Positions 28,759 through 38,611 of a DNA stretch of 64,000 nt are shown here, in pieces. A program made the translations under genes and the position numbers. Source of the stretch: Acidobacteriota bacterium (GTDB lineage: Bacteria; Acidobacteriota; Terriglobia; Acidiferrales; UBA7541); NCBI GenBank assembly GCA_003224145.1, contig QHYN01000200.1, positions 1-64,000 on the forward strand, given 5' to 3'. The first letter of the stretch is position 1, and each line of letters opens with the position of its first letter. Below the pieces are notes generated by a model. It searched no databases and was not told the origin of the DNA. It saw only the letters and a program-made list of their open reading frames with translations.

Positions 28759-28785
28759 TATACTGATTGTCGCATGCACCTATGA
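28759..28785 (+). promoter_or_regulatory. -10 hexamer plus a three-codon mini-ORF before the DegT-type gene
   Basis: TATACT (28759-28764) lies 9 bases before an ATG at 28774 that opens ATG CAC CTA TGA. Its stop (28783-28785) overlaps the main ATG at 28782. No Shine-Dalgarno and no clear -35. A leaderless mini-cistron coupled to the main gene is possible. Confidence 0.3.
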
Positions 28786-29921
28786 GCACGCCCCCACAGC
28801 TCAATCCCGTTCCCGAACCTGTGCCGCAGTTTGATTTGACCGCGCAATATGCGGCGATTGGCGCGGAGATTCGAACGGCCATCGATCGCGTGCTTTCCTC
28901 GCAGCAATTTGTCCTGGGACGCGAAGGCGCCGCTTTGGAACGGGAGATCGCCACGCTGTGCGGCGTCGCGCACGGAGTTGCGGTAGCCTCCGGCACGGAC
29001 GCGCTCATGCTGGCCTTGCGCGCGTGTGGCGTGCACGCTGGCGATGAAGTGCTGCTGCCAACATTCACCTTTGTTGCCACCGGGAGCGCCGTGAGCGCCC
29101 TGGGAGCGAGGCCGGTTTTCGCAGACATTCGCCCGGAAACCTACAACCTCGACCCCGCTGAACTCGAACGCCGCATGACACCGCGAACGCGTGCCATCAT
29201 CGTCGTGCATCTTTACGGACTCGCCGCCGACATGGACCCGATTCTGGCGTTTGCGAAAGCGCGCCAATTGCCGGTCATCGAAGACGGCGCACAGACCATC
29301 GGAGCGTCATACAAAGGACGGCGGACGGGTTCCTTTGGCGATGTGGCCTGCCTCAGCTTCTACCCCACAAAAAACCTGGGCGCGTATGGTGACGCGGGCA
29401 TGGTCGTCTCGAACTCTACCGAGATCGCCGCACGCATTCGAACGCTGCGCGACCACGGCCAGACCGAGAAATATCTCAGCAGCGAACCTGGCTGGAACAG
29501 CCGTCTCGATGAGATCCAGGCAGCAATTCTGCGTGTCAAACTGCGCCATCTTTCGGAATGGCAGCACGCGCGGCGGTCGAACGCCGCGACGTACAGTCGC
29601 CTGTTGCAACAAATCCCTGGAGTCATGCCCCCGCTCGAACCGGAATGCTGCGAACACGTCTATCATCAATACACGATTCGAACGGAGCAGCGCGATGCCC
29701 TCCAGCAGCACTTGGCCGTTCGAAAGATTGGCAGCACTGTCTATTATCCCCATCCCCTGCATCTGCAACCTTTATATGCATCTCTTGGCCACAAACGCGC
29801 TGACTTTCCCCACGCGGAGCGTGCTGCGCAGGAAGTTCTATCGCTCCCGATGTATCCCGAATTGCGGAAGGATCAGATCGCGTGGGTGGTGGAAGCCATC
29901 GGCGAGTTTTTGAAATGTTAA
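28782..29921 (+). CDS. DegT/DnrJ/EryC1/StrS-family PLP aminotransferase
   Basis: A 379-residue sugar aminotransferase-type enzyme; the family transfers amino groups to keto-sugars for surface glycans or antibiotics. Family motifs are clear: V-A-S-G-T-D-A-L (about 68-75), P-T-F-T-F-V-A-T, E-D-G-A-Q and the PLP lysine K197 in F-Y-P-T-K-N-L-G-A-Y-G-D. No other sugar-nucleotide gene is adjacent, so the substrate is unknown. The ATG at 28782 is preferred to a TTG at 28767, which would start only 2 bases after the -10 hexamer. It converges with the oxidase subunit III gene, 16 bp apart. Confidence 0.85.
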   Translation: MSTPPQLNPVPEPVPQFDLTAQYAAIGAEIRTAIDRVLSSQQFVLGREGAALEREIATLCGVAHGVAVASGTDALMLALRACGVHAGDEVLLPTFTFVATGSAVSALGARPVFADIRPETYNLDPAELERRMTPRTRAIIVVHLYGLAADMDPILAFAKARQLPVIEDGAQTIGASYKGRRTGSFGDVACLSFYPTKNLGAYGDAGMVVSNSTEIAARIRTLRDHGQTEKYLSSEPGWNSRLDEIQAAILRVKLRHLSEWQHARRSNAATYSRLLQQIPGVMPPLEPECCEHVYHQYTIRTEQRDALQQHLAVRKIGSTVYYPHPLHLQPLYASLGHKRADFPHAERAAQEVLSLPMYPELRKDQIAWVVEAIGEFLKC

Positions 29922-29937: not shown

Positions 29938-30615
29938 CTACGCGCCAAGAAACAGAAGCACGAACAGGAAGACCCAAAGTCCATCCATAAAATGCCAGTA
30001 GTAGGAAGTGATTTCCGCGGCAGTGGAAATCGAGATCTGCGACTTTTCAAAATTGCGCAGCGCAACAAAGAGCAGCGCCGCCACTCCTCCCAGCAGATGG
30101 ACGGCGTGCGCCCCTGTAAAAATGTAGAAAAAACTGCTGGCCTGGTTGCTCGCAATGTACACGCCTTGCGCCACCAGTTGTCGCCAAGCCACGAGTTGTC
30201 CACCAACAAATACGAATCCCATCAAGGTGCCTGCGAACCACAGCCTGCGAAAGCCGAGCATATCTCGGAGAGCAAGCCGCGACCGCGCCCGTTCCAGAGT
30301 GAAGCTGCTTCCCACAAGAACGAGGGTATTGAACCAAAGAATCCGGGGCAGGTGCACGGTTACCCACACTTCACTGGTGTGGCGAAGAACAAGGAAGGCG
30401 CTGGCCAGAGCCATGAAGAACATGAGGATGGAGATCACGCCGATGGTGATTGCTGTAGAGAAGCGCCGGGATGATGGAGACCCATTGCGTCGGCGCTTGC
30501 CGTCATCCCCATCATCTCCGCCGTTGCCGCCTGCGGGTGGCTGACCGCCACCTCCGCCGCCCCTCGAATCCTCGATGATGAGTTCGACATCTCGAACTGC
30601 GGTTGTCCCCGGCAT
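29938..30615 (-). CDS. Cytochrome c oxidase subunit III-like protein
   Basis: A 225-residue membrane protein. An N-terminal cytosolic stretch rich in Gly and Asp (about 1-48) precedes five helices. Subunit III motifs are visible: F-T-G-A-H-A-V-H-L-L-G-G and the C-terminal Y-Y-W-H-F-M-D-G-L-W-V-F-L-F. It starts 13 bp after the subunit I stop with GGAAGGAAG ahead of the ATG, so the two are one operon. In standard oxidases it stabilises subunit I and its proton uptake. Subunit II (Cu-A) is not in the window. Confidence 0.85.
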   Translation of the reverse strand: MPGTTAVRDVELIIEDSRGGGGGGQPPAGGNGGDDGDDGKRRRNGSPSSRRFSTAITIGVISILMFFMALASAFLVLRHTSEVWVTVHLPRILWFNTLVLVGSSFTLERARSRLALRDMLGFRRLWFAGTLMGFVFVGGQLVAWRQLVAQGVYIASNQASSFFYIFTGAHAVHLLGGVAALLFVALRNFEKSQISISTAAEITSYYWHFMDGLWVFLFVLLFLGA

Positions 30616-30628
30616 ATCTTCCTTCCCT

Positions 30629-32326
30629 CTATTCCAACGAGCAGGTCCTGACTACTTCTCCCGGCGCAAGGTGCTGCGGAACAAAATCCTCGGCCACACC
30701 GGGCACGCCGAATTCATACGCACCCCGATAAACCACGGGTTCGCGCACACCAAAATCATCCGCCGGTGGCGGTGAAGAGACACTCCATTCGAGCGTGGTA
30801 GCACGCCAAGGGTTGCACTCTTCGATTTTTTTGCCGCGAAAAAGGCTCCACAAAAAATTGAACAGAAAGAGCCCCTGCGCAAAAACGGTAATGAGTATGG
30901 CGAACGTGATGAACGAGCGAACCGGGCCGATCAACGCAGCGATGGCGGTGAGGCCGCTGTCGGAGCGAATGTTCGCATGCGAAATGAGTCCCAGCCAGTG
31001 CATAGGCATAAAAACGCAATAAACACCGGCGAAGGTCAGCCAGAAGTGGATTTTGCCCAGCGGTTCGTTGAGGCGGCGGCCAAAGAGTTTCGGGAACCAG
31101 AAAAACAAGGCGCCGAGAATGGCGAAGGTAGCCGCGACACCCATCACGAGATGGAAATGCCCGGCAACAAACTCTTCGCTGACAGCAGAAGAAGCAAGAT
31201 CGTGGCGCGCGAGAAAAATCCCGGAGAGTCCGCCGGCGAGAAAAAGGGAAATGAACCCGAGGGCAAACAGCATGGAAGTGTTGAGCTGGATGCGCGCATC
31301 CCAGAGCGTACCGAACCAACTGATGATGAGAATGGTAGCAGGCAAGCCGAGCGAGGCAGCGAGAAGCGAAAAAACCAGAGGCGAAGAAGGATTCATGCCG
31401 CTGGAGAACATGTGCTGGCCCCAGACACAAAAGCCAACCAGGCCCACGCCACACAGCGCAAGAACAACCAGGCGTTCCTTCCAAACAGGTTTGCGAGAAA
31501 ACGTGGCAATGAGATGGGAAATGATACCGAAGCACGGGAGCATGGCCACGTAGACCTCGGCCTGCGCGAAAAACCAGAAGAGGCGCTGCCACAGCGCGGG
31601 CAAAGCGTCGGCGGCAATATTCGCGGGCTGAGAGGCGAGAAAATTCACCGCTGAGAAAAAGTGCGTGCCGAAAAAACGATCCGAGAGCAAACAGAGACAC
31701 GCGGCGAGGAGAATGCTGAAAATGAGCAGGCTGAGTATGGCGTTGATGAGCCAGGCCCACACTGTCAGCGGAAGCCGCGGAAGAGTCATGCCTTGCGCGC
31801 GCAGGTCGATCGTGGTGACGGTAAAATTGAGCGCGCTGAAAAGCGAAGCGGCGCAGAAAACAGAGACGGAAACGATCCAAAGCGTGATTCCCGACTGCGG
31901 GGCAACCAGGAATGCAGCGGTCATGCCGATGAGCGAAACAACCGTGACCCAGAAAGAAAAAAGGTTGAGCGTGGGAAAGGCCATTTCGCGCGCGCCGATT
32001 TGCAGCGGAAGAAAATAATTGCCGAAGCCCGCCTGGGGCGCGGCGGTAAGGACAAGAAACACCATGAGCGAGCCATGGAGCAAAGGCAGTGTGGCAAAGC
32101 TCTCTGGTGTGCTGCCGAGGGCGGAAAGGAATGGAAGGCGCGCGACAGGCCAGACCAGATGGATGCGCATGAGCAGCGATATGGCCATGCCAAGAAAAAC
32201 GCTGAACAGCGCAAGCCAGAGATATTGTAGGCCGATGGTCTTGTGGTCCGTGGTGAAGAGATGGCGGGAGAGGAAGCCGGCGGGTGGCGACTTCGGTTGA
32301 TTTGCGCCGCTGTCGTAGGTGACCAT
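30629..32326 (-). CDS. Heme-copper oxidase subunit I-like protein with a depleted Cu-B site
   Basis: A 565-residue, about 12-helix protein clearly of the subunit I family (T-T-D-H-K-T-I-G at the start). Heme ligands are all present: H84 in H-G-S-L-M-V-F, H390 and H392 in G-H-F-H-L-V-M. The Cu-B ligands are not. The usual G-H-P-E-V-Y reads A-Q-A-E-V-Y (Q255 in place of His, Y259 kept), and the usual H-H pair reads Q304-H305. The K-channel lysine position reads isoleucine (L-I-I-S-W), and the D-channel aspartate is glutamate (R-E-M-A-F-P). With no subunit II nearby, ordinary oxygen reduction is doubtful. It may be an altered oxidase, a NO- or redox-related relative, or a heme sensor/assembly protein. 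Confidence 0.85.
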   Translation of the reverse strand: MVTYDSGANQPKSPPAGFLSRHLFTTDHKTIGLQYLWLALFSVFLGMAISLLMRIHLVWPVARLPFLSALGSTPESFATLPLLHGSLMVFLVLTAAPQAGFGNYFLPLQIGAREMAFPTLNLFSFWVTVVSLIGMTAAFLVAPQSGITLWIVSVSVFCAASLFSALNFTVTTIDLRAQGMTLPRLPLTVWAWLINAILSLLIFSILLAACLCLLSDRFFGTHFFSAVNFLASQPANIAADALPALWQRLFWFFAQAEVYVAMLPCFGIISHLIATFSRKPVWKERLVVLALCGVGLVGFCVWGQHMFSSGMNPSSPLVFSLLAASLGLPATILIISWFGTLWDARIQLNTSMLFALGFISLFLAGGLSGIFLARHDLASSAVSEEFVAGHFHLVMGVAATFAILGALFFWFPKLFGRRLNEPLGKIHFWLTFAGVYCVFMPMHWLGLISHANIRSDSGLTAIAALIGPVRSFITFAILITVFAQGLFLFNFLWSLFRGKKIEECNPWRATTLEWSVSSPPPADDFGVREPVVYRGAYEFGVPGVAEDFVPQHLAPGEVVRTCSLE

Positions 32327-34811: not shown

Positions 34812-35420
34812 CTAGGGCTTCTTCGTCGGCGTTGGTGTTGGGGCGGGCTGGGAGCTCGCTGGTGGCTGCGTACTTGCCGGAGGTTTTTGTGCCGGCGCTG
34901 ACTGCCCGGGTTGCGAAGATGCCGGAGGCTGTTGCGTTGGCTGAGACGTTGCGGGCGCCGGCTGCGAACCAGATGGAGTTTGCGAAGCGGGCGGTTGAGT
35001 GCCGGGTTGCTGGGCGGGCGGCAGAGCGTTATGCGTATTGGGTTGCGGGACAGCCGGAGTCGGCGCCGGAGCGGGCTTGGAGACTTTTTGCAGGACAGAA
35101 CCACCTTGCTCGACGGCCTTATCGGTGCGGAGGACCAAGGCCAAGGCGCAGAGCATGAACATGATCGCGCACCAGGTGGTGGCCTTGGAGAGAACGTTGG
35201 CGGCACCGCGTGGACCGAAAGCCGTCTGACTGCCCGCTCCGCCGAAAGCGCCGGCCAGATCGGCGGCCTTGCCGCTCTGCAGCAACACAACGATGATCAG
35301 CACAAAGCAGTTTAAAATGAAAAAACCACTGAGGAGCCATCCGGCGTAGCGGAAGCCGACGGCGATGACTCCGAAACCAATCAAAATGGCGATGGCCCAT
35401 TTCATCCAAGCTGGCGTCAT
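34812..35420 (-). CDS. secG: Preprotein translocase subunit SecG with a long Pro/Ser/Gln-rich tail
   Basis: Two membrane helices (about 8-50 and 83-101) flank the SecG signature V-V-L-L-Q-S-G-K-A-A-D-L-A-G-A-F-G-G-A-G-S-Q-T-A-F-G-P-R-G. SecG assists SecYE in protein export. Typical SecG is about 75-120 residues; this one has 202, the extra C-terminal part (from about 112) being Pro, Ala, Ser, Gln and Thr repeats. GAGGT precedes the ATG at 35420. It follows tpiA by 55 bp, the usual gap-pgk-tpiA-secG order. Confidence 0.9.
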   Translation of the reverse strand: MTPAWMKWAIAILIGFGVIAVGFRYAGWLLSGFFILNCFVLIIVVLLQSGKAADLAGAFGGAGSQTAFGPRGAANVLSKATTWCAIMFMLCALALVLRTDKAVEQGGSVLQKVSKPAPAPTPAVPQPNTHNALPPAQQPGTQPPASQTPSGSQPAPATSQPTQQPPASSQPGQSAPAQKPPASTQPPASSQPAPTPTPTKKP

Positions 35421-35475
35421 TGCAAGACCTCACACAAATTCGAAGAAAACCTTGATGCCAGGCTAAAGCCCGGCG

Positions 35476-36228
35476 CTATGCAAAACTGACGATCGTGGCG
35501 AACGATTTGGCATCCAGGCTCGCTCCCCCTACAAGCGCGCCGTCCAACTCTTCCTGCGCCATCAACCCCTGAATATTGTCAGGCTTGACGCTGCCGCCGT
35601 AGAGAATCCGCAGGGCGGAGGCGTGGGCGGCAGAGAATCTCTCAGCCGCACACTGGCGGAGAAACCGATGCACATCGGAGGCGATTTCCGGGGTTGCGGT
35701 GCGGCCCGTTCCAATGGCCCAAACCGGTTCGTAAGCTATCAGAATACGGGAGAACTCGTCCGCGGTCAACGCGGCGACGCCACCAGTAAATTGGGACTTG
35801 CAGATGTGATGGGTTTGGCCGGCTTCGCGGTGAGAAAGCAATTCGCCAAGGCAGACGATGGGAGTTAAGCCGGCGGCGAGGGCGGCTTTCGTTTTTTTGG
35901 CGACGGTCTCGTCGGTTTCGCCAAAAAATTGGCGGCGTTCGGAGTGGCCAATGATGACGTAGCGGCAGCCGGCTTCGACGAGCATGTTGGCAGAAATTTC
36001 GCCGGTGAAGGCGCCGTCTTTTTCCCAGAAAACATCCTGGCCGGAAATGGCGATGTTGGTGCCTTTTGCGACTTCGACGGCGGCAGGAATGGCAGTGAAA
36101 GGCGGCGCGATCACGATATCGCAGTTCGTTGAGGAACCAACCAACGGAGCAAACGCGGAGAAGAAGGCGCGCGTTTCCGATTGAGTCTTGAACATTTTCC
36201 AGTTACCAGCAATGACGCGACGGCGCAT
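35476..36228 (-). CDS. tpiA: Triosephosphate isomerase
   Basis: Interconverts dihydroxyacetone phosphate and glyceraldehyde 3-phosphate. All catalytic residues are in place: N9 and K11 in G-N-W-K, H95 in I-G-H-S-E-R-R and E167 in A-Y-E-P-V-W-A-I-G-T-G; the phosphate loop Y-G-G-S-V follows. Normal length (250). Part of the glycolytic operon, 80 bp after pgk. Confidence 0.97.
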   Translation of the reverse strand: MRRRVIAGNWKMFKTQSETRAFFSAFAPLVGSSTNCDIVIAPPFTAIPAAVEVAKGTNIAISGQDVFWEKDGAFTGEISANMLVEAGCRYVIIGHSERRQFFGETDETVAKKTKAALAAGLTPIVCLGELLSHREAGQTHHICKSQFTGGVAALTADEFSRILIAYEPVWAIGTGRTATPEIASDVHRFLRQCAAERFSAAHASALRILYGGSVKPDNIQGLMAQEELDGALVGGASLDAKSFATIVSFA

Positions 36229-36308
36229 TCAGTCCTCCCATAGAACGAAACGAAAAGATAACGCGGAGGCGCGGAGAACGCTGAGATTTCGCAGAGAAGA
36301 GGCGGAAA

Positions 36309-37502
<1,194 letters not shown>

Positions 37503-37606
37503 GATGTCATAATTCGTGATCTACAAAATGCGACTACGCGCCAGGACGCAGCGTCTGAGATCGTTCGGGGCCCGAACCTGCTGGGACCTCAGAATGACAC
37601 ATTTGA

Positions 37607-38611
37607 CTAGAACTTGGACGCTAAGAGCTTGATCAGGTCGCGGCAACGGCAGGAATAGCCCCACTCATTGTCATACCAGGCCAAAACTTTGACGCAGCGG
37701 TCGCCGACGACTTTGGTATAGCCTGCGTCCACGATGGAAGAGTTGGAATTGCCCTTGAAATCGGCGGAGACGAGTTCCTCTTCGGTGTAGGCGAGAATTC
37801 CCTTCATTGGGCCGTTCGCGGCAGATTTTAGAGCGGCGTTGACCGACTGGACGGTCGCCGGCTTTTCCACGAAAACGGTGAGATCGACGACACTGACATT
37901 GGGAGTAGGTACGCGCATGGCGTAGCCGTCGAGCTTACCCTTGAGCTCGGGAATCACGAGATGCAGCGCCTTGGCGGCGCCGGTAGAGCTGGGAATCATG
38001 TTGATTGCTGCGGCGCGTGCCCGACGCAGATCCTTGTGAGGCAGATCGAGGAGCTTTTGGTCGTTGGTGTAGGAATGGATGGTGGTCATGGTGCCGCTGT
38101 TGATGCCGAAAGTGTCCTGGAGAACCTTGGCGACGGGCGCAAGGCAGTTCGTCGTGCAAGAAGCGTTAGAAATGACGTGATGCTTCGCGGGGTCATAGGT
38201 CTTGTCGTTCACGCCGAGAACGAAGGTGGCGTCAGGGCCATCGGCAGGCGCGGAGATGATCACTTTTTTCACCGGCGCACGGAGATGCTTCTTCGCGTCG
38301 GGCCCCTTGGTGAAAAGGCCGGTGGATTCCACAACGATTTCGGCGCCAACCGAGGCCCAATCGAGTTCGGCGGGATCCTTCACCTTGAAAACCTTGAAGC
38401 TGCGGCCTTCGACGGCGATGGTGTCATCGGTATGAGTAACGTTGTGCGGCAAGTTGCCCAGAACGGAGTCGTACTTCAACAGGTGCGCGAGCGTTTTCGC
38501 GTCGGTGATGTCGTTGACGGCGACAAATTGAATGTCCTTGTCGTCGAGGGCCGTGCGCACGATGTTACGCCCGATGCGGCCGAAGCCGTTGATGCCGACC
38601 TTGATGGGCAT
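37607..38611 (-). CDS. gap: Glyceraldehyde-3-phosphate dehydrogenase (type I)
   Basis: Oxidises glyceraldehyde 3-phosphate with NAD. The Rossmann motif G-I-N-G-F-G-R-I-G-R opens the protein, catalytic C152 is in S-N-A-S-C-T-T-N-C-L-A-P, and the C-terminal W-Y-D-N-E-W-G-Y-S is present. An Asp after N in V-N-D-I-T-D suggests NAD rather than NADP. 334 residues. GGAGGAAGGT precedes the ATG. First gene of the glycolytic operon; a TACAAT hexamer about 47 bp upstream could be its -10, with a weak -35. Confidence 0.97.
   Translation of the reverse strand: MPIKVGINGFGRIGRNIVRTALDDKDIQFVAVNDITDAKTLAHLLKYDSVLGNLPHNVTHTDDTIAVEGRSFKVFKVKDPAELDWASVGAEIVVESTGLFTKGPDAKKHLRAPVKKVIISAPADGPDATFVLGVNDKTYDPAKHHVISNASCTTNCLAPVAKVLQDTFGINSGTMTTIHSYTNDQKLLDLPHKDLRRARAAAINMIPSSTGAAKALHLVIPELKGKLDGYAMRVPTPNVSVVDLTVFVEKPATVQSVNAALKSAANGPMKGILAYTEEELVSADFKGNSNSSIVDAGYTKVVGDRCVKVLAWYDNEWGYSCRCRDLIKLLASKF

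Follow-up and report, generated by a model that had tools for sequence, protein, structure and literature searches.

The 64-kb stretch of acidobacterial DNA analysed here, called the window below, carries a gene for a homologue of heme-copper oxidase subunit I in which two of the copper ligands are missing. This gene, cox1*, is followed by a gene for a subunit III homologue, cox3* (Table 1). The reading frame of cox1* starts with ATG and has no internal stops, so the first-pass annotation was right in describing the gene as intact and paired with subunit III. Its observation that subunit II is not near can be extended. No COX2 was found within the window, and the genome's only two COX2 genes lie on other contigs, each adjoining a normal cox1; there is thus no COX2 anywhere in the 64 kb.

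Table 1. Features of the cox1*-cox3* locus and its conserved neighbours in the window
Feature	Position	Strand	Remarks
cox1*, heme-copper oxidase subunit I homologue without CuB ligands 1 and 2	30629..32326	-	565 aa
cox3*, subunit III homologue	29938..30615	-	225 aa; 13 bp 3' of cox1*
F-A-Q255-A-E257-V-Y259 motif	31550..31570	-	canonical F-G-H-P-E-V-Y
Q304-H305 codons	31412..31417	-	canonical His-His (CuB ligands 2 and 3); coordinates derived from residue numbers
H390-F-H392 codons	31151..31159	-	high-spin and low-spin heme ligands; coordinates derived from residue numbers
secG (34812-35420), tpiA (35476-36228), pgk (36309-37502), gapA (37607-38611)	34812..38611	-	conserved upstream neighbours
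DegT/DnrJ/EryC1-family aminotransferase	28767..29921	+	conserved downstream neighbour

The cox1* protein scores 332 bits against the Pfam COX1 model and 421 bits against the NCBIfam CtaD model, which is under the latter's cut-off of 670.75. Residues 16-527 align in phmmer with P. denitrificans and other A-type subunit I sequences, and the motifs are unambiguous. The predicted fold is that of a 12-helix A-type subunit I (Z 38.0, 469 residues, rmsd 2.9 to 3om3). The AlphaFold model behind this comparison is heme-free and of medium confidence (mean pLDDT 73), and was used only for the overall fold and the limits of the helices.

The DegT/DnrJ/EryC1-family aminotransferase downstream is probably functionally unrelated to cox1*-cox3*. 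It is inverted in one orthologous locus (L051, 8410-9504) and missing from another (L052), whereas the class I aminotransferase beside it keeps its place. These differences are local rearrangements around the operon.

Residues of cox1* can be matched to those of the P. denitrificans protein (given first in each pair). The heme ligands H94, H411 and H413 correspond to H84, H390 and H392, Y280 to Y259, and E278 to E257. At the CuB site, H276 corresponds to Q255, H325 to Q304 and H326 to H305; in the proton channels, K354 corresponds to L333 and D124 to E114. Everything that had been read from the letters at first is borne out, the residues by this alignment to A-type subunit I. The three heme ligands and Y259 are present. 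The first CuB ligand is Q255 in the F-A-Q-A-E-V-Y motif and the usual histidine pair reads Q304-H305, which leaves H305 as the sole CuB histidine. The K-channel lysine is absent, and the D-channel aspartate has become glutamate. It had been allowed that the true CuB positions might lie elsewhere and be occupied by histidine; the alignment and the fold comparison are unambiguous on this point, and a misalignment is excluded by phmmer, by the alignment of orthologues and by the comparison of structures.

These changes are not peculiar to one genome. A search of 61 relatives found full-length or near full-length cox1* at 63-82% identity in 25 further genomes of the genus, and fragments in one more. 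The gene is present in 26 of the 36 species analysed from this acidobacterial genus, and a 27th has pieces of it. A scan of GTDB representatives recovered the same set: acidobacterial soil MAGs from several independent projects, mostly titled 'gp2'. Within the family (89 genomes), the next-best matches have at most 57% identity, and those examined are normal Cox1 proteins with all six histidines. Sampling the phylum more widely (396 genomes) yielded no further cox1* at E <= 1e-160, a cut-off that would miss more distant convergent cases. Outside the genus, the DNA pattern for FAQ-x-EVY also matches genomes of the class; the five such matches examined (L084-L088) are four alcohol-dehydrogenase-like proteins and one short chance frame, and as none of the five is an oxidase, they add nothing to the clade. 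A public MAG titled Betaproteobacteria (L051) also carries an acidobacterial cox1* locus, whose protein matches that of L022 from the window's genus. This MAG is probably mislabelled.

An alignment of the 26 orthologues separates what is kept from what is lost. The heme histidines at all three positions, Y280, E278 and H326 are each found in 26 of 26 sequences, and R54 is also invariant. H276 is replaced by Gln in 25 and by Leu in one; H325 is replaced by Gln in 17, Glu in four, Tyr in four and Leu in one. All 26 lack both histidines, whose presence in close homologues had been named beforehand as the mark of a decaying gene or an assembly error. The recurrence of the same changes in 26 species is far beyond chance or sequencing error. 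With so many orthologues from several independent sequencing projects, and with dN/dS of about 0.10-0.18, assembly error or decay is rejected as the main reading.

No orthologue is hydrophobic at both former ligand positions, CuB-1 and CuB-2, and so the pocket stays polar. Since the CuB-2 position has no conserved new ligand, a replacement metal seems unlikely. New residues are fixed near the lost site in 25 sequences, namely A254, A256 (or S), R248, A323, L326, A402 and L404, a pattern that looks like remodelling and not drift. The tyrosine Y259 is kept in all orthologues, while the histidine for its cross-link is absent.

The losses extend to one of the two proton channels and to the periplasmic face. 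In the K-channel, K354 is Leu in 26/26 and T351 is Ala in 23/26. In the D-channel, N113, N131, N199 and E278 are kept almost throughout, and D124 is replaced by Glu in 25/26. Beyond the losses noted at first, the W164 loop is deleted (gapped) in every sequence. Also lost from all 26 are H403 and D404, which together with subunit II make up the Mg site of canonical oxidases; R474 is not retained, and the heme-propionate arginines are not conserved. A conserved acidic pair stands at the former T405/Y406 on the periplasmic face. Of residues conserved in normal oxidases, the periplasmic loops keep 6/29 and the cytoplasmic loops and termini 24/45 (Fisher p 0.007, with loop and helix limits taken from the predicted model). 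This suggests that the face for subunit II and electron entry has been given up, while the membrane core and cytoplasmic side are better kept.

Loss of the K-channel lysine turns out not to be specific. A second A-type group in the same genus and its kin (L055, L107-L111, L113, L115) has all CuB and heme histidines, with K354 replaced by Met, Ile or Leu and T351 by Ala or Met. Judged by these residues, its members are CuB-intact oxidases without the standard K-channel. The lysine is indeed absent from cox1*, as first noted, but its loss was rejected as a mark of the clade.

Evidence for the origin of cox1* is provided by a tree and by gene order. In the cox1 tree, the 26 cox1* sequences form one clade (support 100; stem of 1.11 changes per column) that lies within the Cox1 proteins of the family itself; the enclosing groups have support 97 and 98. 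This tree is of the 'quick' kind and the stem is long, so the exact sister genus is uncertain; synteny provides independent support. Genome G232 of the sister genus (L096) encodes a normal Cox1 in the arrangement gapA-pgk-tpiA-secG-cox2-cox1-cox3. Three further loci (L117, L118 and L120) have a normal cox2-cox1-cox3 preceded by secG or tpiA-secG. A locus titled Candidatus Acidiferrales (L054) has a normal cox2-cox1-cox3 followed by a class I aminotransferase, as downstream in the window. In five cox1* loci (L039, L043, L047, L052 and L053), gapA-pgk-tpiA-secG is followed by cox1*-cox3*, with cox2 absent; a sixth (L035) shows the same from pgk onwards.

The conserved upstream neighbours indicate that the locus is orthologous to the standard cox2-cox1-cox3 operons of sister genera. 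Taken together, tree and gene order are most simply explained if the operon was converted in place and not acquired, cox1*-cox3* having replaced the standard cox2-cox1-cox3 and cox2 having been lost. No subunit II was found in any orthologous cox1* locus examined, and cox3 follows cox1* in every orthologue whose contig reaches that far. The homologues form a single supported clade without subunit II in the loci examined, the point that the first-pass annotation had proposed to check.

Among the closest pairs, cox1* has a dN/dS of 0.10-0.18 and the normal oxidase of the genus one of 0.03-0.06, which indicates that cox1* is under constraint, though a looser one. For cox3* the range is 0.05-0.17. 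The gene cox1* is intact in 25 of the 26 species with long matches. The copy in G011 (L020/L049), which sits on a long terminal branch of the tree, has a premature in-frame TAG shortly past the X-XI loop and is possibly a pseudogene or an assembly error.

Other species of the genus have only part of the operon. Four genomes without cox1* (G007, G009, G021 and G033) retain an intact cox3* alone at the locus, and near-complete G008 has neither gene there. In the species with an orphan cox3*, this gene has a dN/dS of 0.11-0.17, a sign of purifying selection. The cox3 tree places two orphans basal to the cox3* clade and two inside it, which implies at least one loss of cox1*, and probably two, since the origin of the clade, with cox3* staying behind. 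Together with G008, the species with cox3* only show that cox1* is dispensable over longer times. Orphan cox3* genes are found at the gapA-pgk-tpiA-secG locus, with no cox1 or cox2, at L121:10082-10741, L122:5727-6257, L123:5812-6459 and L126:1687-2181.

An ordinary oxidase role for cox1* is unlikely, since the copper site, one proton channel and the electron-delivery subunit have been lost. The window's genome also encodes two complete normal oxidases, along with a single heme A synthase-like gene, and so respiration does not depend on cox1*. The ligand losses and the clade support the original proposal of a divergent heme protein that does something other than standard oxygen reduction, though this other function is itself inferred.

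We give about an even chance to the reading that cox1*-cox3* is a former aa3 oxidase operon for a diheme membrane protein that binds a gas and acts in sensing or regulation, or in slow redox chemistry. In the ancestor of a single acidobacterial genus, an aa3-type operon would have lost subunit II and the CuB site, and cox1*-cox3* would have been retained since then as a diheme integral membrane protein. Its ligands suggest one six-coordinate low-spin heme and one five-coordinate high-spin heme, with no copper. Any reduction of the protein would take place directly at the heme edge exposed to the periplasm and not via CuA. In the absence of copper, O2 should not undergo its usual four-electron reduction at normal rates. 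A diatomic gas (O2, NO or CO) could instead bind the open high-spin heme, and next to the cell's intact oxidases this binding may serve sensing or regulation, or slow chemistry of one or two electrons. Several points count against this reading: cox1* has no linked sensor or effector gene, its heme-propionate arginines are not conserved, which could alter the binding of heme, one orthologue has a premature stop, and the gene is dispensable over longer times. The role that appears most likely is nevertheless gas binding, whether for sensing or for slow redox, with scaffold or assembly next.

A scaffold would be a non-catalytic partner of the normal aa3 oxidases: a pseudo-subunit for assembly, heme storage or regulation, in which cox3* is the essential part and cox1* the support. 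Normal oxidases are present in the same genomes, and cox3* outlives cox1* in four species belonging to two separate lineages, where the orphan is itself under purifying selection. A scaffold, however, needs no conservation of the heme ligands, Tyr280, Glu278 and H326 in 26 of 26 sequences, and we regard this explanation as rather improbable. Much the same doubt attaches to a heme-only NO or peroxide reductase, which would carry out one- or two-electron chemistry at the high-spin heme, taking protons from the D-channel and receiving electrons from a periplasmic cytochrome c. The retention of N113, N131, N199 and E278, the change of D124 to Glu and the acidic pair in place of T405/Y406 are all consistent with such an enzyme, and superfamily members with altered active sites do reduce NO (PMC8756737). 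Yet the NOR glutamate ligand pattern is missing, the residue at ligand 2 varies between Gln, Glu, Tyr and Leu with no conserved new metal ligand, and the loci read show no recurring linked cytochrome c or denitrification gene.

The graded states within the genus, from cox1*-cox3* to cox3* only to neither, could also be stages of slow decay, in which a dying oxidase operon has already lost subunit II but has not yet disappeared. The dN/dS, some three times the value for the normal oxidase, and the one premature stop (L020) fit this picture. It is hard to reconcile with genes that are intact in 25/26 species at 61-82% identity and have dN/dS well below 1, with invariant heme ligands, or with substitutions at the former CuB-1 position that are themselves conserved. 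Slow decay is thus the least probable of these explanations.

Possession of the three CuB histidines is taken as a defining feature of the heme-copper oxygen reductases. The data sets of a published classifier discarded sequences without the six conserved histidines (PMC3084760), and a clade like cox1* would therefore be invisible in such surveys. It would otherwise probably be annotated as ordinary cytochrome c oxidase, and counts of cox1 genes would overestimate terminal oxidases in soil metagenomes. A natural relative free of CuB and subunit II, selected in about 26 soil species, would show the uses of the two-heme core alone. Synteny arranges full oxidase, cox1*-cox3*, cox3* alone and nothing into a series that offers a view of how a respiratory complex changes its job.

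Several known systems can be compared with cox1*. It has in common with the A-type (A1) CtaD/CoxA proteins (P. denitrificans 1AR1, R. sphaeroides 3OM3) the fold with 12 helices, the heme histidines, Tyr280, Glu278, the D-channel asparagines and a subunit III partner. It differs from them in lacking CuB ligands 1 and 2, K354, the W164 loop, the Mg-site residues and subunit II. The family's syntenic cox2-cox1-cox3 oxidases (L096, L117, L118, L120; also L054 and L100) have about 50-55% identity to cox1* and share its neighbourhood (gapA-pgk-tpiA-secG in L096; tpiA/secG in L117, L118 and L120), but have all six histidines, K354 and an intact cox2.

The comparison with NO reductases that was first drawn does not hold beyond membership of one superfamily with altered active sites, because cox1* is nested in the family's A-type oxidases by tree and gene order and keeps the tyrosine that eNORs replace. 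In eNOR, Gln takes the place of the active-site Tyr, there is a cupredoxin subunit II, and a proton channel is proposed to be retained (PMC8756737). In contrast, cox1* loses histidines and has no subunit II; with Y259 kept in 26/26, it is not an eNOR. The cNOR and qNOR enzymes have a His-His pair followed by a conserved Glu motif (PMC3084760), and cox1*, whose pair reads Q304-H305, does not belong to them either. A literature search, mostly outside subscription journals, found no description of a superfamily member lacking both CuB and subunit II, nor of any clade of subunit I proteins lacking CuB. Site-directed mutants of the CuB ligands in laboratory oxidases lose CuB and retain the hemes. 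Compared with these mutants, the change in cox1* is natural, common to most of a genus and kept by selection.
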